Below are positions 13,575 through 63,781 of a DNA stretch of 64,000 nt, piece by piece. Origin of the DNA: Nodosilinea sp. FACHB-131 (GTDB taxonomy: Bacteria > Cyanobacteriota > Cyanobacteriia > Phormidesmidales > Phormidesmidaceae); NCBI RefSeq assembly GCF_014695395.1, contig NZ_JACJOF010000012.1, positions 62,001 through 126,000 on the forward strand, read 5' to 3'. A program made the position numbers and the translations under genes. A model generated the notes under the pieces. It ran no database searches and was not told the origin of the DNA. It saw only the letters and a list, made by a program, of their open reading frames with translations. Positions within the stretch are counted from its first letter, which is position 1, and each line of letters opens with the position of its first letter.

Positions 13575-15605
13575 ATGGCTCAAAACGTCCTTTCAGACCG
13601 ACGTAATGTAGCGCTGGTCGGCACCTATTCCAGCGGCAAAACAACGCTTTTAGAGAGCATTCTGTCTGTCACTGGAGTCACAACTCGCAAGGGCAGCGTC
13701 GATGAGGGCAACACCCTCGGTGATAGCTGCCCGGAGGCCCGCACCCGCCATATGACCGTAGAACTCAATGCCGCCAGTACTCAGTACGGCGGCATTTGTT
13801 TTACGTTTGTCGATTGCCCTGGCTCGGTGGAGTTGCAGCAGGAGACCAACCATGCCCTGATGGGGGTCGATGCGGCGATCGTGGTCTGCGAAGCCGACCC
13901 CAACAAAGTGCTCACCCTCTCGCCCCTACTGCAATTTTTAGACGCTTGGGAAATCCCCCATCTGATCTGGATTAACAAGCTCGATCGCGCCAACGGCACT
14001 TTCGCTGAGGTGTTAACGGCCTTGCGTCAGATTTCCTCCCGACCAGTGATTCCTCAGCAGTACCCGATTCGCCAAAACCACGAATTAGTAGGCTTTATTG
14101 ATCTCGTTACGGAACAAGCCTTCCACTACCATCCCGGCGCTCCCGCTGACCCCGTGCCGCTGCCCGCCGCGCTGCAGGCCGAGGAACAGGCCGCCCGCGC
14201 TGAAATGCTGGAAGCCCTAGCTGACTATGACGATCATCTATTAGAAGAACTGCTGGAGGACATCGCACCTCCCGAAGAGGAAATTGTCCACGACCTGAAA
14301 ATGGAGCTGGGGGCCGATCTCATTGTGCCGGTATTTATCGGTGTGGCCCTGAATGACTACGGCGTGCGCCCCCTGCTCGACGCCCTAGTGAAGGAAGCCC
14401 CAGCCCCAGAGGTCACCTGCGAGAAGCGGGGCATCACCTGCGAGACCGATACCCTAGCCCAGGTGCTCAAGACCTATTACACCCCTCAGGGCGGCAAACT
14501 TTCCCTGGTCCGGGTCTGGTGTGGCGAACTCAAGGATGGGGATAGCTTGAACGGCGATCGCATGGGCGGTCTCTATGACTTGATGGGCACCCAACAAACC
14601 AGCCTCACCCGAGCGGAGGCCGGTCGCATTGTTGCCGTAGCTCGCCTGGAGGGAGCTCAAACTGGTGACACGCTAACCCACAGCGGCAATCTCGATGCCC
14701 TGCTGCCCAAGGCTCCTGTTATTGAGCCGGTCTACGCCCTGGCCATCACTTCCGTCAAGCGCAGCGATGAGGTTAAGCTCAGCGCTGCCCTCACCAAACT
14801 GCTCGAAGAAGACCCCTCCCTCTTTTGGGAGCAGCATGGCGATACCCACGAGGTGATTCTCTGGGGCCAGGGGGATGTGCACTTAAATTTGGCGATCGAT
14901 CGCCTCAGCCGCAAATACAACCTGCCCATGGCCACCCACCTGCCCCAGGTGCCCTACAAAGAAACTATCCGCCAGGCCAAGGAGGCCGTCCACGGACGCT
15001 ATAAACACCAAAGCGGCGGTCACGGTCAGTTTGGCGACGTGTACCTGTCCATTCAGCCGCTGCCGCGCGGCGACGGCTTTGCCTTTAGCGATACCATCGT
15101 GGGCGGCGTGGTCCCCAAGCAGTACATCCCCAGTGTCGAAACCGGCGTGCGCGAATACCTCGACCATGGCCCCTTAGGCTTTCCGGTAGTAGATGTGGCG
15201 GTGACGTTAACGAATGGCTCCTACCACAACGTTGACAGTTCCGACAATGCCTTTAAACAGGCAGCCCGCATTGCTATGCAAGAGGGCTTGGTGGCCTGCA
15301 CCCCCACCCTGCTCGAGCCCATTGACCTGGTAGAAATTTCGGTGCCCAGCAGCTATACCTCCAACGTGCTGAAGCTGATCACCGGCAGGCGAGGGCAAAT
15401 CCTCGGCTACGAGGCCAAAGCCGACTGGCCCGGCTGGGATGTGGTCACCGGGCACCTGCCCCAGGCCGAAATGCAGACTATGATTTTGGAGCTGAGGTCA
15501 CTGACCATGGGCGTAGGCTTCTTCAAGTGGACCTACGACCACCTCGACCCGGTTCCAGAGAAACTCACCGAGCGGATTCTAGCGAGTACGGGGGGCGATC
15601 GCTAG
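13575..15605 (+). CDS. Elongation factor G-like GTPase (EF-G paralogue)
   Basis: The 676-residue protein has the five-domain EF-G layout: G domain with P loop GTYSSGKTT (residues 16-24), DCPG (80-83) and NKLD near residue 135, a domain II, and C-terminal domains with GGHGQFGDVYLSIQPLP and the RGQILGYEAK region. It differs from canonical EF-G: the P loop lacks the usual AHIDAGKTT form and the switch II motif reads DCPGS, not DTPGH, so the catalytic histidine position is Ser84. It matches the EF-G-like paralogue that cyanobacteria carry besides the translational FusA. Its role in ribosome function is unproven. The start is set by AAGGAG at 13563-13568, six bases before the ATG at 13575; an in-frame upstream ATG at 13545 is less likely. 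Confidence 0.88.
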   Translation: MAQNVLSDRRNVALVGTYSSGKTTLLESILSVTGVTTRKGSVDEGNTLGDSCPEARTRHMTVELNAASTQYGGICFTFVDCPGSVELQQETNHALMGVDAAIVVCEADPNKVLTLSPLLQFLDAWEIPHLIWINKLDRANGTFAEVLTALRQISSRPVIPQQYPIRQNHELVGFIDLVTEQAFHYHPGAPADPVPLPAALQAEEQAARAEMLEALADYDDHLLEELLEDIAPPEEEIVHDLKMELGADLIVPVFIGVALNDYGVRPLLDALVKEAPAPEVTCEKRGITCETDTLAQVLKTYYTPQGGKLSLVRVWCGELKDGDSLNGDRMGGLYDLMGTQQTSLTRAEAGRIVAVARLEGAQTGDTLTHSGNLDALLPKAPVIEPVYALAITSVKRSDEVKLSAALTKLLEEDPSLFWEQHGDTHEVILWGQGDVHLNLAIDRLSRKYNLPMATHLPQVPYKETIRQAKEAVHGRYKHQSGGHGQFGDVYLSIQPLPRGDGFAFSDTIVGGVVPKQYIPSVETGVREYLDHGPLGFPVVDVAVTLTNGSYHNVDSSDNAFKQAARIAMQEGLVACTPTLLEPIDLVEISVPSSYTSNVLKLITGRRGQILGYEAKADWPGWDVVTGHLPQAEMQTMILELRSLTMGVGFFKWTYDHLDPVPEKLTERILASTGGDR

Positions 15606-15634
15606 CCACACCCGCTAAATAGCGTCTCTCTTAA

Positions 15635-15670
15635 TAGACCCCAGAGTTCTTGAAAAAACTCTGGGGTCTA
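15635..15670. terminator. Bidirectional terminator hairpin
   Basis: A perfect 14-base-pair inverted repeat (TAGACCCCAGAGTT and its complement) with an eight-base loop CTTGAAAA lies between the EF-G-like gene on the + strand and the GFA gene on the - strand. The loop-side A and T runs and the convergent arrangement make it a good shared terminator. Confidence 0.75.
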
Positions 15671-15678
15671 ACTATTAG

Positions 15679-16050
15679 CTACTCAGAGCGTTTAGCAAAC
15701 TCGGCAAGCAACGCCGGAAAATCTGCTGACTTTGGAAAATTTTCAAAGCTGTGGACGGCAGGGGTTATTGCCCACGGCAGCTTTTCGTCTGTGTAGGTCT
15801 CAACGAATGGGCTGTAAGCTTGGGCGTCATCTAGCATTGTCGATCGCACGTTGACGAAGTCATCCATACCCTCGAGCCGTGTGAATAGCCAGCTCATGCA
15901 GTGGGCACAAAAATAGCGACGCGTTGCGCCGTGCAGCCCACCAATGATAGGTTCACCCTGCGTTACTTTGAACCCGCTGCTGGGATAAAGCTTGCTCAAA
16001 CTAAAGGCGCTGGCGGTCATTCGCTGACATCCGGTGCACTGACACGTCAC
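15679..16050 (-). CDS. GFA/CENP-V-family protein, N-terminally truncated
   Basis: The protein resembles the glutathione-dependent formaldehyde-activating (GFA/CENP-V) family of zinc-binding proteins. The central [12 protein letters not shown] block and the [11 protein letters not shown] block with the second cysteine pair are present. Normal members begin about 25 residues earlier with a GSCxCG motif that supplies zinc ligands. Here that part is absent: the frame runs back from the GTG at 16050 through about 13 codons without another start (EIFLKPLIT) to a TGA near 16080, and the attC-like site begins at 16088. The 5' end therefore seems to have been cut off where the cassette array begins. 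The product is probably inactive, so a pseudogene is possible. Confidence 0.7.
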
Positions 16051-16087
16051 CGTTATTAACGGTTTTAAGAAGATTTCTCAATGTATT

Positions 16088-16172
16088 AGCTAACGACTGA
16101 GATGAGCGGCAATAGTAGCCTTGAATTTAGAACCATTGCTTTGTCTTGTCCGCTCCATCTCAATTGTTAGCT
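16088..16172 (-). other. attC-like integron recombination site 1
   Basis: Read on the - strand, this 85-base element has the layout of an integron attC site. It starts with AGCTAAC (R''), then a spacer AATT, then GAGATGGAGCGG (L''), a variable loop, CCGCTCATCTC (L'), a spacer, and ends with GTTAGCT (R'). The two L arms pair perfectly except for one extra G in the first arm, which is the unpaired extrahelical base that orients attC sites. The spacers are only partly complementary, as the unpaired central spacer should be. R' differs from the GTTRRRY consensus at one base. The orientation matches the membrane-protein gene at 16186-16779, which ends 13 bases before it. Confidence 0.78.
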
Positions 16173-16878
16173 GGCTTTATCTTATCTAATCAGGCTTTTC
16201 ACCTCTCTCGATCTTCAGAAAAGTGCTGGTTCGTTTCAGTCGCTTGTAGTCACCTTCACTTAGGTTTCTCCAGGTGTAAAAAGTTGCGACAACTCCAAAT
16301 GCACACACCATCGTGCTAAAAATTGAAATCTTTATCTTAATGCTGGAATCTATCTGTGCAAGATCAGTCCAGAGAAAAACAAGCGTACTGATTGCTAGGC
16401 ACACAAAGTTCACGCTCCAAGCACGGCAAATTCGCAACCTACTGCGATCGTACTCAAATCGATTAATGACATTTTCAGCAGCATATGTGTACACATATGT
16501 TCTAACTGTTTCAACATCTATATCCTCGCCAAGATATCGTCTACAGAAGAAATCCTCCAATCTACGAAAAACTTTTCTGTAGATGTTGAATACTAAATAG
16601 TCTGTGACTATGCCTAAAACATAAATTAGAGATAGGAAGGGTAAGAGTGCGATTAAAGCTGTAATCTGTTGCCCAGGAATCCAGAAGTAGCCAAAGATGC
16701 TCAATATCAGAAGAGTGATCCAAGCTGCTGTGCCTACACCGATAACAATGAGTTCAACAAACAGAGCGGTTGTGTTCATCCTAAATCCTACTCTAATGAA
16801 CTGCTAAGAGTGCCTTTGTGCAGCAGCATAATGTGAATTGTATGAAGATGTTTACCAAACTCATAACTAGCCAGCTAA
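16094..16878 (-). mobile_element. Integron-type gene cassette bounded by two attC-like sites
   Basis: If both attC-like sites recombine between the G and the first T of their R' core, the segment between the two cut points is a 785-base unit. It holds one complete gene (16186-16779, - strand) and, downstream of it in the same orientation, one attC-like site. That is the standard form of an integron cassette. No integrase gene is visible in the window, so this would be a cluster of attC sites lacking an integrase. The extent is inferred from the core positions. Confidence 0.65.
16186..16779 (-). CDS. Multi-pass membrane protein of the cassette
   Basis: The function is not recognised. The 197-residue protein has four likely membrane segments: residues of about 8-30 (FVELIVIGVGTAAWITLLIL), 38-62 (ITALIALLPFLSLIYVLGIV), 123-142 (VNFVCLAISTLVFLWTDL) and 150-170 (ISIFSTMVCAFGVVATFYTW). 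The loop between the second and third segments is charged and carries YVYTYAAENVINRFEYDRSR. The C-terminus is strongly basic (KRLKRTSTFLK). Base composition is clearly more AT-rich than that of the flanking core genes, which fits transfer. It is the only gene in the 785-base cassette and lies 13 bases before attC-like site 1. Small membrane proteins are frequent cargo of cassettes, and some act in phage defence, but nothing here proves such a role. Confidence 0.7.
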   Translation of the reverse strand: MNTTALFVELIVIGVGTAAWITLLILSIFGYFWIPGQQITALIALLPFLSLIYVLGIVTDYLVFNIYRKVFRRLEDFFCRRYLGEDIDVETVRTYVYTYAAENVINRFEYDRSRLRICRAWSVNFVCLAISTLVFLWTDLAQIDSSIKIKISIFSTMVCAFGVVATFYTWRNLSEGDYKRLKRTSTFLKIERGEKPD

Positions 16879-16995
16879 CGGCTAAGTTCACCGGCGCTCC
16901 ACGAATTATTAATATGCCTCGCCAAGCGCGAATCGTAACGGACCTACACGAATTTTTGCCACGTAGAGAGCGTCCGATGCAACGCCTTGTTCGGC
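16873..16995 (-). other. attC-like integron recombination site 2
   Basis: Read on the - strand, the element begins with GCCGAAC (R''), spacer AAGGC, then GTTGCATCGG (L''), a loop of about 75 bases, CCGGTGAAC (L'), spacer TTAGCC, and ends with GTTAGCT (R'). The L arms match (GTTGCA against GTT-CA, then YCGG) with one extra G in the first arm, the same polarity as attC-like site 1. The GCCGAACAAGGC opening resembles many known attC sites. Short overlapping reading frames here (16793-17051) are therefore best regarded as non-coding. Confidence 0.75.
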
Positions 16996-17093
16996 GGCAT
17001 GTTGTCATTGTCAGTAGAGTTGATCTACTTGCAGGATTAGCCGTATTCTAGCAACAACAATTCGCAACACTACAAATACGAGGAGATAGCATT

Positions 17094-18113
17094 ATGACGT
17101 TACCAAAACTTTTGCCTTTACAGAAATTACAGGAACGGCTCTTATCGATATTTACTGATACAAATGCGAACCGGCATCTCGTCAGTCAAGAAAGGGCAGG
17201 GCGCTTCATTTTTGTCATGCTCTACGTTGGTGCCGTGGAAGGGGAAAATGTTTGGGCAAGCATACAGCATGTTACTGCAATGAGTGATAGTCAAGCTAGC
17301 TTACAGACGCCGCTTCAGCGTCGGTCGTATCACGATTCACCGTATCAAAGTTGCAATTTAGGTGAGCAAGCTTGGTACTCGCCAAACGCGCGCGAGACAA
17401 TTCGTCGCCTCCTATTGCCAGAACTCATAAGAATTAATGCGGTGGTCGTACGAAGTGATCTCCCGCTAAATTCGCCACAACCTCGATACGCCTTGAAAAG
17501 AGAGTTTGCGGCCTTATTTAATGCAGAGGCAACGGAGAGTGAGTTTGTACTCTTAAAAGATGAATGGATTAAAGTAAACAAACCCTATCTTTCTAATCAG
17601 AATACCTTATCGTCTATTCCACCAGGCAATGATAATGCTGGCCGATTTCACGACTTTATTTTTCATGCTCTCCAAAAGATATTTCATCCAACTCTTCACC
17701 ATGCGAAAAAAGAGCAGCCTATCAACGATGGCAGAAAGAAAATTGATATAACTTTTACCAATGAAGCTGATAGAGGCTTCTTTCGCCGATTAGTCTTTAT
17801 CCATAGCATCAAGAGTCCATATGTGTTTTTCGAGTGCAAAAATTACTCCAATGATCCCAAAAACCCAGAGATCGATCAGTTGGTTGGTAGACTAAATGAT
17901 AGAAGAGGTAGATTCGGTGTGCTTGTTTGTCGTACTGTGGATGATCCAATTAACATATTAGCGCGATGTAGAGACGTCGTTCATTCAAACAACGGCTATA
18001 TTGTTGTGCTGACGGATGATGACATAATTGCACTGCTCGACATGAAGGGCAAAAATAATTTAGAGGGAATAGATAATTACATGGAGGAGAGGCTTCGGTC
18101 GCTCATACTTTAG
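17094..18113 (+). CDS. PD-(D/E)XK nuclease-like protein, possible defence gene
   Basis: I do not recognise the family of this 339-residue protein. The C-terminal half has a restriction-endonuclease-like core: GRFHDFIFHAL helix (183-193), Asp218 in KKIDITFT, Glu247-x-Lys249 in VFFECKNY, and Gln262 in EIDQLVGRL, the order expected of PD-(D/E)XK nucleases of the Mrr/HJC type. GRFGVLVCRT and GYIVVLTDDD resemble the later core strands. The N-terminal half (1-175) has no recognised domain and could recognise DNA or a phage signal. The ATG has GAGGAG about nine bases upstream. The gene is AT-rich and lies 99 bases beyond attC-like site 2 in the opposite orientation, so it may belong to a neighbouring cassette. 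Target and activity are unknown. Confidence 0.72.
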   Translation: MTLPKLLPLQKLQERLLSIFTDTNANRHLVSQERAGRFIFVMLYVGAVEGENVWASIQHVTAMSDSQASLQTPLQRRSYHDSPYQSCNLGEQAWYSPNARETIRRLLLPELIRINAVVVRSDLPLNSPQPRYALKREFAALFNAEATESEFVLLKDEWIKVNKPYLSNQNTLSSIPPGNDNAGRFHDFIFHALQKIFHPTLHHAKKEQPINDGRKKIDITFTNEADRGFFRRLVFIHSIKSPYVFFECKNYSNDPKNPEIDQLVGRLNDRRGRFGVLVCRTVDDPINILARCRDVVHSNNGYIVVLTDDDIIALLDMKGKNNLEGIDNYMEERLRSLIL

Positions 18114-18168
18114 CTAGCAGAGTGTACTCGATACACAAAGCCGCCGAACTATGTATTAAGCGTCAAAA

Positions 18169-18291
18169 CTGCTGGATAAGCCCCTAGTTTTAGAGCATTA
18201 TCGGTCACTTTTGAGGGTTAACTCCTGAGTTTAGGAGTCTTATCCATCAATTATGCTGGATAAGCACCCAGCGAGAGGTCTTATCCAGCAG
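18169..18291. repeat. Four alternating copies of CTGGATAAG/CTTATCCAG
   Basis: A motif CTGCTGGATAAG occurs at 18169-18180 and, as TGCTGGATAAG, at 18254-18264. Its complement CTTATCCA occurs at 18239-18246 and CTTATCCAGCAG at 18280-18291. Orientation alternates, so neighbouring copies can pair in two mutually exclusive ways. A further small hairpin ACTCCT/AGGAGT lies at 18221-18238. No gene is seen in 18114-18600; this repeat and the palindromes at 18463-18556 are its main content. Confidence 0.7.
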
Positions 18292-18462
18292 CTTTTGGGT
18301 TTGCAATCTACAAGAGCATCTGCGCCCCCAATCGCTCTTCCACGGTTGACGGGGAGCTTTTGTACCATTACTCTCTTACGTTAAGCCGTTCGAGCAGAGC
18401 GGTTGTCTTGCAGAACTCGAAAATCTTAGCGCTGCCTGAAGGTGCTTGCGACACCAACAGAC

Positions 18463-18556
18463 AGCTAACCCCGCAAATCTACACCGCAGATTGCGAGGCT
18501 AGGCTCATGGTACCCTAGCCCCCTCAGTTTGCACTTGCGCTGCGGGTGGCTAGGGT
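18463..18556. repeat. Two palindromes; first one weakly attC-like
   Basis: The first palindrome, 18463-18505, opens with AGCTAAC, has arms CGCAAATCT and AGATTGCG with one extra base, and closes with GCTAGGCT. It resembles a short or decayed attC site in the same orientation as sites 1 and 2, but its R'' core has GCT where GTT is expected and its spacers are only about two bases. The second palindrome, 18512-18556, has perfect 9-base ends ACCCTAGCC and GGCTAGGGT. They lie upstream of the small gene at 18601 and may also act in its leader. Confidence 0.5.
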
Positions 18557-18600
18557 TTTCGCGTTCTGTTTCTTCCCCAACAACAAAGGAAACAGAACCG

Positions 18601-18930
18601 ATGTTTGAATATCTCGAACCAGAAGCCAACGACAACCAAGAGACCAATTCCCTGCCGCTGCCGCCCAGGTCCGGAGCCGTTAACAAAGGCATCAACCCCG
18701 AAAAGGTTCGCCACCTGCTCTTTGGCAGTTTGGCAGGCATAGACCGCACCATCAAAATCCTCCACGCCCTGGGCTACGCCGACCCTAACAACTGGAGCGA
18801 CCCCATCCCCGCACCGCCCAGCGTCGATGGAGCAACAACCGCCCGGTTGTTGAGCGGAGTCGTTGGCGCAGCCTCCCCGGAGGGGATGCCGTGGATGGTC
18901 ATTCTCACCAGAACGGTTCTCATTGAGTAA
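18601..18930 (+). CDS. Small conserved cyanobacterial protein carrying an in-frame repeat insertion
   Basis: The 109-residue product has a core KVRHLLFGSLAGIDRTIKILHALGYADPNNWSDPIP that matches a very common small cyanobacterial protein of unknown function (core pattern HLLFGSxxxxxxTIxxLHxLGYAxxxxWS). In other members the core leads directly into a short end such as GEVMSILTR. Here about 20 residues (TTARLLSGVVGAASPEGMPW) intervene before MVILTR, and the DNA encoding them is palindromic repeat sequence (18829-18891). The frame stays open across it. The start at 18601 has AAAGGA about 12 bases upstream; an earlier in-frame start at 18529 lies in the palindrome region and is unlikely. Confidence 0.7.
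   Translation: MFEYLEPEANDNQETNSLPLPPRSGAVNKGINPEKVRHLLFGSLAGIDRTIKILHALGYADPNNWSDPIPAPPSVDGATTARLLSGVVGAASPEGMPWMVILTRTVLIE
18829..18891. repeat. Small dispersed palindromic repeat inside a gene
   Basis: The segment contains a hairpin CAACAACCG/CGGTTGTTG at about 18833-18852 and then CGTTGGCGCAGCCTCCCCGG with a complementary GGGG run. Palindromes of the form CGTTGGCG(C/T)AGCCTC are familiar as small dispersed repeats of Nostoc-type cyanobacterial genomes. Its length is compatible with insertion that keeps the reading frame of the host gene. Confidence 0.6.
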
Positions 18931-19019
18931 GTCTCATTGCCATCCGTACCGGCTTCCTAGTGCTGCTGCCCAACACTAGGAACCTGGTAAAGGAACTCGG
19001 TACCTTATCGCCCCCATAC

Positions 19020-19224
19020 GTGATCTGCGCCTTGAGATCGCCAATGTAGAAGACCCGTTAGCGATCTAACGCCTTAGTTTAACGATCTGCACCCTGCGAT
19101 CGCCAAACTGGCACAGCAGCTTAACGATCTGAAGGCTCAGATCGCCAATTGCAGCTCTGCGATCGCTAAACTGGCACAGCAGTATGGCGATCGCACCTCG
19201 CAGCTTAGCTCTGCTGAGTCTTAA
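19020..19224 (+). repeat. Degenerate tandem repeat with GATCTG...GATCGCCAA units
   Basis: Units beginning GATCTG or GATCGC recur at about 19020, 19054, 19083, 19125, 19160 and 19188, with AAACTGGCACAGCAG repeated at about 19102 and 19167. Several units contain HIP1-like GCGATCGC. One + frame from about 19080 to the TAA at 19222-19224 reads as a short heptad-like peptide (AIAKLAQQLNDLKAQIAN and so on), but it lacks a start codon, so it is a remnant or a coincidence. No other gene is seen in 18931-19242. Confidence 0.6.
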
Positions 19225-19242
19225 CCTTAACCGGCATCTTCC

Positions 19243-20175
19243 ATGACTCCACCGCCCCTCCGCATCATCTCCCTCATTCCTAGCGCCACTGAAATTGTCT
19301 GTAGCCTGGGATTAGAAAAATGTCTGGTGGGCCGCAGCCACGAGTGCGACTTTCCGCCCGCCGTCAAAGAGCTGCCCGTTTGCACCGCGCCTAAGTTCAA
19401 CCCCGAGGGCAGCAGCGGCGAAATCCACCAGCGGGTGAGCGACCTGCTCACCTCGGCCCTCAGCGTTTACCGGGTCGATGTCAACCGGCTAGAAGCTCTA
19501 CAGCCTACCCACATCATTACTCAGGCCCAGTGCGAAGTTTGCGCCGTTAGCCTAGGGGATGTAGAAGCTGCCGTGGCCGAACTCACCCAGGGTCAGCCGC
19601 AGCTTATTTCCCTTTCCCCCAACCGCCTAGCTGATGTTTGGGACGACATCTATAGGACTGGGATTGCGCTGCTCGGAGAAGCGGGGCAGGCGCAGGTAGA
19701 GACTGTTTTAGCGGAGCTAAAGCAGCGGGTGCAGATTTGTTGCGATCGCACCGCCGATCTCCCCGCTCCTACCGTCGTCTGTATTGAGTGGACCGAACCG
19801 CTGATGGCCGCTGGTAACTGGGTGCCCGAGCTGGTGGCCCTGGCCGGGGGCAAATCGCTCTTTGGCCAGGTCGGCCAGCACTCCCCCTGGCTCACCTGGG
19901 ACGACCTAATTGCCGCTGACCCAGAGGTGATAGTAATCATGCCCTGCGGTTACGACCTAGCTATCACCCGACGCGAGAGCGCAGCGCTAACGGCTCACCC
20001 CCAATGGTCACAGCTCAAAGCGGTACAAACGGGTCGAGTCTACCTAAGCGATGGCAACCAGTATTTCAACCGTCCTGGCCCTCGCCTAGTTGACTCCCTG
20101 GAGATTTTGGCGGAAATTTTTCACCCAGAGCAGGCTGCCTACGGCTACCGAGGCCAAGGTTGGCAGCCCTTATAA
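19243..20175 (+). CDS. BtuF/TroA-like periplasmic-binding-fold protein without signal peptide
   Basis: The 310-residue protein resembles the cobalamin-binding BtuF group of class III solute-binding proteins. It has the opening IISLIPSATEIVCSLGL, the VGRSHECDFPPAV segment, LEALQPTHIITQAQCEVCAV, and a C-terminal VYLSDGNQYFNRPGPRLVDSLEI helix region. It starts directly with MTPPPLRIISL, so no signal peptide or lipobox is present and the product is probably cytoplasmic. Cytoplasmic members of this family are frequent in cyanobacteria and are annotated only by similarity. No cobalamin transporter genes or cobalamin riboswitch are adjacent, so vitamin B12 binding is tentative. Confidence 0.8.
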   Translation: MTPPPLRIISLIPSATEIVCSLGLEKCLVGRSHECDFPPAVKELPVCTAPKFNPEGSSGEIHQRVSDLLTSALSVYRVDVNRLEALQPTHIITQAQCEVCAVSLGDVEAAVAELTQGQPQLISLSPNRLADVWDDIYRTGIALLGEAGQAQVETVLAELKQRVQICCDRTADLPAPTVVCIEWTEPLMAAGNWVPELVALAGGKSLFGQVGQHSPWLTWDDLIAADPEVIVIMPCGYDLAITRRESAALTAHPQWSQLKAVQTGRVYLSDGNQYFNRPGPRLVDSLEILAEIFHPEQAAYGYRGQGWQPL

Positions 20176-20350
20176 CTCTGGGAACGATTAATCTAGAGTT
20201 GCTGATCTCAGGTAGGAAGCAAAAATTAAACGCTGCTTGCGAGGGCAAACTACCGTATAGCCTTTGGCTTGGCTGCACCTGTGCCCTACCCAAGTTCATG
20301 GTTCAATTCAGCAACGCCATCAATCTTCTTGCTTGACGTTTTACGAAGCA

Positions 20351-61615: not shown

Positions 61616-61818
61616 GGTTAACTTGGCATTATGAATTCAGCAGGCATAGGTGGGTTTTGCCTATTAGTCACACAACCAGACATGCAGCAATGCATAACAA
61701 GTCCAGCTATCAGTATTGATGGAATTTCTACGTAACGGTGAAGTTGTGCGGCGGCAAGTAACCTTGAACTCTCACCGATAAACTTTGTACCGTCCGCACC
61801 AACGAGGTGTTGTGCGGC

Positions 61819-62199
61819 TTAGCGACTGTAAGGCTGCTCAATTCTCAAGCCGGAGATGACTTGGTAGTGCTTCACGTTGAAAGTGCAGAGGGTTGCGCTA
61901 CGACCAACGGCACAAGCCGCAATCAAGGCATCAATTAGACCAACCTTGTGAGATAAATGATATGTCGTAAAGTCAGATAGAGCACGGGAACAGTCGGTTT
62001 CAGTAGGCCAAACAATAGCTAACGGTGCTATAAGCTGTAGGACTTTACGCACCTGTTGCTTGTTCTGAGCATCCTGAATCAATTCCATTGCCACAAAGCC
62101 GGGAATGCTTGGCAGTTCTGGAATAGAGGCAAACCAAGTCACTGCTGGCCCGTACCCCCGCTGAATATCGATCATGACATCGGTATCGACTATATACAC
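61819..62199 (-). CDS. PIN-domain toxin (VapC-like)
   Basis: The 126-residue protein is a VapC-like PIN-domain ribonuclease. Acidic residues of the active site are visible: Asp5 in MYIVDTDVMID, Glu39 in FVAMELIQD and Asp90 in KVGLIDALIAACAV; the last position, usually Asp or Asn, is Asn108 in CTFNVKHYQV. Such toxins cut tRNA or rRNA and are held in check by the antitoxin encoded next to them. The start overlaps no gene and lies seven bases downstream of the antitoxin stop, the usual VapBC order. The pair sits in an AT-richer patch between two osmoprotectant permease genes, consistent with recent gain. Confidence 0.88.
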   Translation of the reverse strand: MYIVDTDVMIDIQRGYGPAVTWFASIPELPSIPGFVAMELIQDAQNKQQVRKVLQLIAPLAIVWPTETDCSRALSDFTTYHLSHKVGLIDALIAACAVGRSATLCTFNVKHYQVISGLRIEQPYSR

Positions 62200-62206
62200 T
62201 CGCTAC

Positions 62207-62467
62207 CTATGCCCGCTCACGGTGTTCGGCTTGGTCGCGCAACTGACGGGCGTGCTCCTGACTGTCAGCAATATCGGGCCGAGAGTTGATCACCCCAACG
62301 CTCTCCCAGTAGGCAACAAGGTCTAGCCCTGTTTTGGGAGGGTTTTGCAGAAAAGGGCGAAAGGAGAGAACACGAAGAATATACTCTGACAGAGGCAATT
62401 TAAGCTGGGAAGCCTCAGCAGAAAGCTCATTCTCTAGCTCTAATGGTAAATCCAAAGAGATAGTCAT
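62207..62467 (-). CDS. Antitoxin of the VapBC-like pair
   Basis: The 86-residue protein precedes the PIN toxin on the same strand. It starts MTISLDLPLELENELSAEAS, an amphipathic beginning typical of short ribbon-helix-helix or AbrB-independent antitoxins in cyanobacteria, and ends in a charged helix IADSQEHARQLRDQAEHR that could bind the toxin. The ATG at 62467 has GGGAG about nine bases upstream. The same frame is open further upstream through a zinc-ribbon remnant (62498-62799), so a longer fusion product cannot be ruled out. Confidence 0.75.
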   Translation of the reverse strand: MTISLDLPLELENELSAEASQLKLPLSEYILRVLSFRPFLQNPPKTGLDLVAYWESVGVINSRPDIADSQEHARQLRDQAEHRERA

Positions 62468-62497
62468 AACACTCAGCTCCCGTATAGCTTGCGTTTG

Positions 62498-62799
62498 GTA
62501 GACAACGCCATGATTCTTCTCGGCACAACTCTGGCAGATGCCATCATTATGCATCCAACCACGGGGGTTCCGCTCCCCACACTCCTGGCAAATTTGAAGA
62601 TATTGCTTGTTTTGCAGAATTGCTTGAATTCTAAAGTCTACTTCCTGAGGTGAGGAGGTTTTTGGGAGTATAGAGGCTACTGTCCAACTAGATATGGTTC
62701 ATGAGGGTGTGGCCAGGATATACCGCGAACAAGGAGCTGAATTTCATCATTTTCTTGTTTGACTTGTCTGAATTCAGAAATAATTTCTTTATCGTTCAT
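62498..62799 (-). pseudogene. Broken small zinc-ribbon protein gene
   Basis: Two pieces in different frames look like one former gene. The first starts at ATG 62799 (MNDKEIISEFRQVKQENDEI and so on, ending HPHEPYLVGQ) and stops at a TAG at 62677-62679 after 40 codons. The second, one frame over, reads SPQEVDFRIQAILQNKQYLQ, then ICQECGERNPRGW and ICQSCAEKNHGVVY, with two CxxC pairs typical of a zinc ribbon, but no start codon. Similar small cyanobacterial proteins join such parts in one frame. A frameshift near 62680 would explain the break. The second frame continues without a stop into the antitoxin gene. Confidence 0.55.
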
Positions 62800-62836
62800 G
62801 ATCTAGACTGCGATTATTAATGCTAGGTCAAACTCG

Positions 62837-63613
62837 TCAGATACTTTTAGGTAGAACCTTTGAGATCTCAGAACTCCAGTATGCCAGCTTGTTTTTGTAG
62901 GTAGGAGATTGATTCATCAACTTTTTCCAAGTCCCATTGGCAGCGCCACTAGGGTGAGGAAAATTCAAATGCTGAATATTGAGATCTAATTCCTTGACGC
63001 TATTCGCTGACTCCTTCCCCCAGGTTACTAGAGCAATGGGACTCATAGCCAGAATTTCTAATTTCAAATTACTTATGAATTTTTCTTGATCTATCCTCGG
63101 TAGTTTTACACCGTAGTAAGGGCGATTCGGATCACAAACCCAGACTTTGTAGACATCTGTCAAATATACTCTATAGCCCAAGGTCAACAGGGCAACGATC
63201 ATTTCAAAGTAAAGCTTTGTACGCCCAAGAATTTCACGAGAACCTTTGTGATGCAAACCATAAGGGGTGCCAAGGCTTATTTGTTCAGAATCTTGATCAC
63301 TCTTGGAATCTTGACCAAGTATAACAATTGTAGGTTTATCGTTTATTCCATTATCCAACTCAAAGAGACTTGGCAAGTCTATGGCAATTGAAGGAGATAT
63401 TTCATATATCTTTTGAAAATTTTGATGCTGGCTCTTAAAGAAATCTCGCCTGACAAAATGAGACGGCCATCCATTTTTACCGAAATCGTTAATTATTTCT
63501 TGGTAGAGCAGTTCTAGCTCTGAGCTTGTTGTATCGAAAATATTGCACAGCAGTCTAGATATCGAATCAAATTCTTGAGCCTTAAATTTTGAGAAAATCA
63601 GATTCTCAATCAT
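62837..63613 (-). CDS. Uracil-DNA-glycosylase-superfamily-like protein
   Basis: I recognise only the fold pattern. The 258-residue protein has IVILGQDSKSD (residues 97-105), reminiscent of motif A GQDPY of uracil-DNA glycosylases, ALVTWGKESANSV in the middle, and LNFPHPSGAANGTW (217-229), reminiscent of the motif B HPSP/HPSxLS loop. The order and spacing fit the superfamily, but the substitution pattern is unusual and the usual Tyr and Phe that stack the base are absent. It could be a repair, immunity or unrelated nucleotide-binding protein. The gene is distinctly AT-rich and lies next to a toxin-antitoxin pair, consistent with transfer. Confidence 0.6.
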   Translation of the reverse strand: MIENLIFSKFKAQEFDSISRLLCNIFDTTSSELELLYQEIINDFGKNGWPSHFVRRDFFKSQHQNFQKIYEISPSIAIDLPSLFELDNGINDKPTIVILGQDSKSDQDSEQISLGTPYGLHHKGSREILGRTKLYFEMIVALLTLGYRVYLTDVYKVWVCDPNRPYYGVKLPRIDQEKFISNLKLEILAMSPIALVTWGKESANSVKELDLNIQHLNFPHPSGAANGTWKKLMNQSPTYKNKLAYWSSEISKVLPKSI

Positions 63614-63781
63614 TCCAAATTACTACTCAGTGTGAAAACTCACCTCGCCACCCTCACTTTAAACGTAATTTTCTACTCCGAGGAAGTCTGCTGCCGCCTA
63701 ACAACTTATTATGCCGAAAGTTTCCGTATAACTCCTTCCAGGGTGGATTATACAGATAGTGGCTAAGCCGCAACTGCCACT

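Follow-up and report, generated by a model that had tools for sequence, protein, structure and literature searches.

Orphan attC sites without a nearby integrase in Nodosilinea sp. FACHB-131: very probably the residue of a multi-locus chromosomal integron

Introduction

Integron integrases (IntI) bind the folded bottom strand of attC sites, cut between the G and the TT of the GTTRRRY core, and join the ends to attI or to another attC. Two or more attC sites on the same strand with no integron-integrase nearby are classed as CALINs (IntegronFinder, PMC9024848). In Xanthomonas, CALINs occupy conserved chromosomal positions across species, pointing to an ancestral integron that is progressively losing activity, and CALINs are stated to be mobilisable in trans (PMC12444791). 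Cyanobacteria are already among the groups with reported integrons (PMC2426708, PMC8618304), and there is an attC model of the Cyanobacteria type (PMC8352920).

Here we analyse a window of 64,000 nucleotides (the whole stretch of DNA considered) from Nodosilinea sp. FACHB-131, in which two same-strand attC sites enclose a cassette without a nearby intI. This locus, locus A, is a CALIN by the above definition; it differs from the CALINs of PMC9024848 in that there are few sites per locus and many loci per genome, and in that a conserved module and attI-like scars mark out particular integrons of the past. Like the Xanthomonas arrays (PMC12444791), the integrase-less arrays studied here lie at conserved loci across species, but they belong to another phylum, lack one common anchor gene of the ilvD kind, and occur in a setting where a number of attI-like ends have outlasted their intI and the two intI genes of the genome are both pseudogenes. 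Phylum and intI plus attC architecture are shared with the known cyanobacterial integrons (PMC8352920, PMC2426708; Kovacikia minuta pB), whereas the passages in PMC8352920 and PMC2426708 name only the phylum and do not describe locus A or a spread of orphan arrays. An earlier note on this DNA knew of no described example in the lineage, a view that the reports of cyanobacterial integrons and attC types do not bear out (PMC2426708, PMC8618304, PMC8352920); among the open-access literature, we found no paper describing locus A or the spread of orphan arrays in this genus. Locus A is very probably the relic of a system for capturing genes and not something of a new kind.

Results

Two attC sites of one polarity bound a 785-bp cassette

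The core of locus A consists of the following features.

16088..16172, minus strand: attC site 1, with R'' AGCTAAC, R' GTTAGCT and one extra G in the R''-side arm
16873..16995, minus strand: attC site 2, with R'' GCCGAAC and R' GTTAGCT, 123 nt, with a long loop region
16094..16878, minus strand: gene cassette of 785 bp, bounded by two cut points, GTTAGCT at either end
16186..16779, minus strand: cassette gene, 197 aa, predicted membrane protein (read from the sequence)

On the minus strand, site 1 is laid out as AGCTAAC AATT GAGATGGAGCGG ... CCGCTCATCTC AGTC GTTAGCT and site 2 as GCCGAAC ... GTTGCATCGG ... CCGGTGAAC ... GTTAGCT. Both fit the attC plan, with complementary L arms, the one on the R'' side longer by a single base, and AGCTAAC, GCCGAAC and GTTAGCT are each one position off the consensus RYYYAAC / GTTRRRY. 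The earlier note had described the coordinates, the core boxes, the stems and the one additional base correctly. A plus-strand reading of the two sites was ruled out by the extra base, which places both on the minus strand; they have the same orientation and are 700 bp apart.

The cut points fall between G16879 and T16878 in site 2 and between G16094 and T16093 in site 1, and between them lie a single ORF (16779-16186, minus strand, 197 aa) and then site 1. The 785-bp unit is a gene cassette, as had been proposed: one gene followed by its own attC, with GTT cores as its ends and GTTAGCT at both cut points. The 197-aa protein matched no Pfam, NCBIfam or PADLOC family. Relatives of its gene are patchily distributed, in 9 of 291 genomes of the class (this one included) and in no other genome of the same genus. 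An attC stands directly behind such a relative in one case only (G121), and the relatives were for that reason dropped as proof of a cassette origin. At the orthologous locus, none of the relatives compared carries the 785-bp cassette, and a matching empty site was not seen.

A covariance model recognises both sites

A rule-based finder run 5' of the integron-integrase genes of related genomes detected attC sites oriented away from intI, and 20 of these sites near intI, none of them from this genome, were used to train an attC covariance model. The two stems of the model covary, with 58 double changes against 20.7 after shuffling and 89% of cells paired against 72% after shuffling, and this support collapses once the pairing partner is slid. 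As positive controls, 24 same-strand sites were found in the integron of Gemmatirosa kalamazoonensis, which is named as the bearer of one of the large integrons (PMC9024848), and five sites were found upstream of the integrase on Kovacikia minuta plasmid pB (NZ_CP083584). The zero scores of several genomes argue for its specificity. An Rfam scan at gathering and relaxed thresholds returned nothing relevant and no attC family match.

In the whole window at E<=10, the model has exactly three matches: site 1 (16172-16088; 61.6 bits, E 2.3e-13), site 2 (16995-16873; 30.1 bits, E 2.7e-5) and a third site (61815-61730; 65.6 bits, E 2.2e-14), which is the strongest in the window and was overlooked in the earlier inventory. 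The claim of two attC sites of one polarity holds, with both scores above threshold; the flanks differ from one related species to another, and the combination of low scores and invariant flanks that had been named as counter-evidence was not found.

The rule-based finder gives site 1 a score of 42.5; the highest score from three Markov-shuffled windows, with both strands scanned, is 35.0. Folding, which the earlier note had suggested as a check, gives site 1 a stability z of -4.6 against shuffles. Site 2 has no excess stability over shuffles (z 0.6 and 0.0), though its bottom strand can take up the attC fold at -12.1 against an MFE of -13.8 kcal/mol, a gap of just 1.7. Site 2 is the weak one, also in its degenerate R'' and its rule-based score of 26.5; as this score falls inside the noise of the shuffled windows, the site rests on the covariance model and on its position. 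Taken alone, it could be a chance inverted repeat by the standards of the simple finder and of fold energy. Chance is, however, refuted for site 1 at E 2e-13, and for site 2 it has to contend with E 3e-5 and with the orientation and spacing shared with site 1, which leaves it an extremely improbable origin of the pair.

The flanks of locus A resemble those of an integron that has lost its integrase

The host assembly (6.16 Mb in 45 contigs, with 15 phycobilisome-family matches) contains two integron-integrase genes on other contigs, C14 and C20, both broken. The C14 gene (461.7 bits, above the curated cut-off) has an in-frame stop, and the C20 gene is frameshifted and split over two frames. 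The breaks could in principle be assembly errors; as they read, both integrases are probably dead. That no integrase is present is therefore correct for the window and incorrect for the genome, and the comparison with integrase-less clusters outside integron-carrying strains does not apply to a host that, with two broken intI, is not a never-integron strain.

The flanking features of locus A are as follows.

15679..16077, minus strand: GFA-family gene, N-terminally truncated (PF04828), a conserved flank of the slot in same-genus species
16064..16093, minus strand: opening of another, truncated cassette after site 1, TTAGCTAATACATTGAGAAATCTTC, apparently fused to the GFA gene through a deletion; a similar start lies behind attI at locus B of G009
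17094..18113, plus strand: BsuBI/PstI-type restriction-endonuclease-like gene (PF17728, 2e-20, N-terminal domain; REase_II, 6.4e-25)
18336..18930, plus strand: conserved module with a small ORF (about 18601-18930), which directly follows intI at both intI loci

In minus-strand order, locus A thus runs from the module through the restriction-endonuclease-like gene (opposite strand), site 2, the 197-aa gene and site 1 to the GFA gene. At both C14 and C20 the module starts about 30 bp past the intI stop codon, and the restriction-endonuclease-like gene has the same place and orientation as intI at these two loci. The GFA gene covers PF04828 positions 24-114 here and 3-114 in a relative, and its homology to relatives stops at 16064-16077. 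No intI remnant was found between 16995 and 18336 at E<1, and a search of this genome's locus A for an attI-like motif came up empty, though relatives have one; having neither intI or a remnant of it nor attI, locus A is not a complete integron.

The module has 19 matches in this genome, about 10 of them good. Arrays of attC lie within 4 kb of 5 of 16 module copies, all in the expected orientation, where the expectation is about 1.2% for each. The small ORF, which has no match in Pfam or NCBIfam, differs 1.8 times more at third codon positions than at first and second positions, which suggests that it encodes a protein under selection. Its product reads MFEYLEP...DRTIKILHALGYADPNDWS, and the module adjoins several intI genes in the genus, directly 3' of them.

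Cassettes turn over at the orthologous slot

Six same-genus species retain attC in the orthologous slot, which the GFA gene and the module flank, in the same orientation, with other contents and without intI. In G014 the slot is filled by a VapBC-like pair plus a gene of 258 aa, whereas G007 and G008 have HNH-type genes and others there; G024 combines a NAD-binding-like gene with a VapBC-like pair, and G019 has a protein-kinase-like gene (names of slot genes without a family-library match were read from their sequences). In G015 the array is gone from the slot and half an attC is left. No intI remnant was detected at locus A or B in relatives at E<1. A putative attI-like sequence, like the others recognised by similarity, is kept at locus A in G019, G014 and G007; these three share an intI-less attI-module joint, yet their cassettes differ, and the attI-like type of G014 resembles a stretch about 105 bp before the intact intI of G082. 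The closest relatives (91-93% identity) are uninformative on the slot, because the whole stretch 15605-20350 is absent from them.

A second integrase-less locus shares an exact-ended unit with a relative

A second attC locus without intI, locus B, occupies 61730-63733 of the window and was likewise missing from the earlier note; it comprises a VapBC-like pair and an attI-like end.

61730..61815, minus strand: attC, 65.6 bits
61819..62199, minus strand: PIN-domain (VapC-like) gene, PF01850
62207..62554, minus strand: putative antitoxin partner, VapB-like by position
62837..63613, minus strand: 258-aa gene, no Pfam match
63692..63733, plus strand: attI-like sequence, TGCCGCCTAACAACTTATTATGCCGAAAGTTTCCGTATAAC, with its core between G63702 and T63701 on the minus strand and without adjoining intI

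A 1,981-bp unit is common to locus B of this genome (G000) and locus A of G014, and the match begins at the attC core and stops at the attI core. The two copies are 87.6% identical, against 81-84% for the flanks. The attI-like sequence of locus B shares 93% identity with the stretch 5' of the C14 integrase, and candidate attI-like ends are present at locus B in G000, G009 and G013. On the left flank, the match reaches 61728 in G009 and G013 and 61736 in G012; position 61736 is the crossover base, at which G012 runs on into a different attC. At the predicted positions of locus B in G004 and G021 there was no match. Nothing else in the data points as clearly as this sharing and these flanks to cassettes having moved from one chromosomal site to another. 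Such signs of exact core-ended mobility are seen for the locus B unit and its G012 flank and were not observed for the 785-bp unit.

Orphan attC sites are numerous in this genome and its relatives

The genome contains about 44 attC sites at E<0.01 in about 31 clusters, 22 of which are single. Many dispersed hairpins per genome are also what palindromic repeats of the REP or MITE-like kind, spread by a transposase, would produce. The conserved one-base asymmetry, the strong covariation in place of copy identity, the fixed orientation relative to intI and the module, and the cassette boundaries at the crossover base together refute such repeats in most respects, and we give this origin almost no credence.

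Could the cassettes instead have been inserted by an integrase at non-integron (attG) positions, so that locus A was never an integron? The number of clusters and of single sites would agree with this, and cassette insertion at attG has been reported (Loot et al. 2024, as cited in PMC12444791 and PMC12901181), where cassettes likewise lie outside a complete integron. At locus A, though, the intI-linked module is in the right place and orientation, orthologues retain attI-like sequence, and six species use one slot, where PMC12444791 describes a wide dispersal of attG insertions. The two loci in the window differ in having integron-specific flanks, and attG is unneeded to explain them. We consider attG insertion an unlikely history for locus A; some of the genome's other single sites may have arisen in this way.

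We searched 98 genomes, this one included, drawn mainly from the genus and family of the host: 53 gave intI matches at E<=1e-30 and 89 gave attC matches. The median attC count was 16 in genomes with intI and 7 in those without, where high per-genome counts are to be read as "at least" because no more than 45 candidates were scored in any one genome, and at least five attC sites occurred in 29 of the 45 genomes without detectable intI. Three genomes (G006, G046 and G069) have an integron-integrase and zero attC matches with this model; they may represent empty integrons or another attC type. In this genome, the 61-kb contig C36, possibly a plasmid, carries two attC arrays (L177, 9803-12492; L178, 6497-12154) flanked by attI-like sequence that resembles the C20 attI region; no integron-integrase was found on this contig, only XerC-like recombinases.

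Discussion

Locus A is very probably an integrase-less remnant of a multi-locus chromosomal integron, the residue of a cassette array. Of that array, a single cassette, the one with the 197-aa gene, and two attC sites, 1 and 2, would be left. The integrase formerly between array and module would have been lost, with the restriction-endonuclease-like gene now in its place. A deletion would further have removed the following cassette together with the start of the GFA gene, because attI is gone, the GFA start is lost and the bases after site 1 match a cassette start of G009.

How would such an array have worked? When active, IntI would have recognised the folded bottom strand of each attC (the plus strand of the window) and cut between the G and the TT of the GTTRRRY core, and cassettes would have been exchanged between attC and attI sites. 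The anatomy of the locus fits the IntI mechanism at every step that sequence can reveal. We infer that an integrase, working partly in trans, moved the cassettes and that the host has no active integrase system left. The remnant arrays were probably once served in trans, and the locus A cassette is probably now frozen, because the local integrase is gone and both other intI genes are broken.

More tentatively, and less probably than not, these loci might form a distributed integron, in which several chromosomal and possibly plasmid loci, each with an attI-like site and cassettes, were stocked in trans from an integrase gene at another place, the arrays continuing to change after loss of the local intI. 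This idea is supported by the intI-less attI-module joint that G007, G014 and G019 share around differing cassettes, and by the unit common to G014 and G000, which is more alike than its flanks; intI may have been lost independently in these species.

Cassette traffic has shaped many chromosomal loci in one cyanobacterial lineage, and a set of comparable species, some with the integrase intact and some without it at shared slots, would open both the fate of orphan cassettes and the supply of integrase in trans to direct tests.
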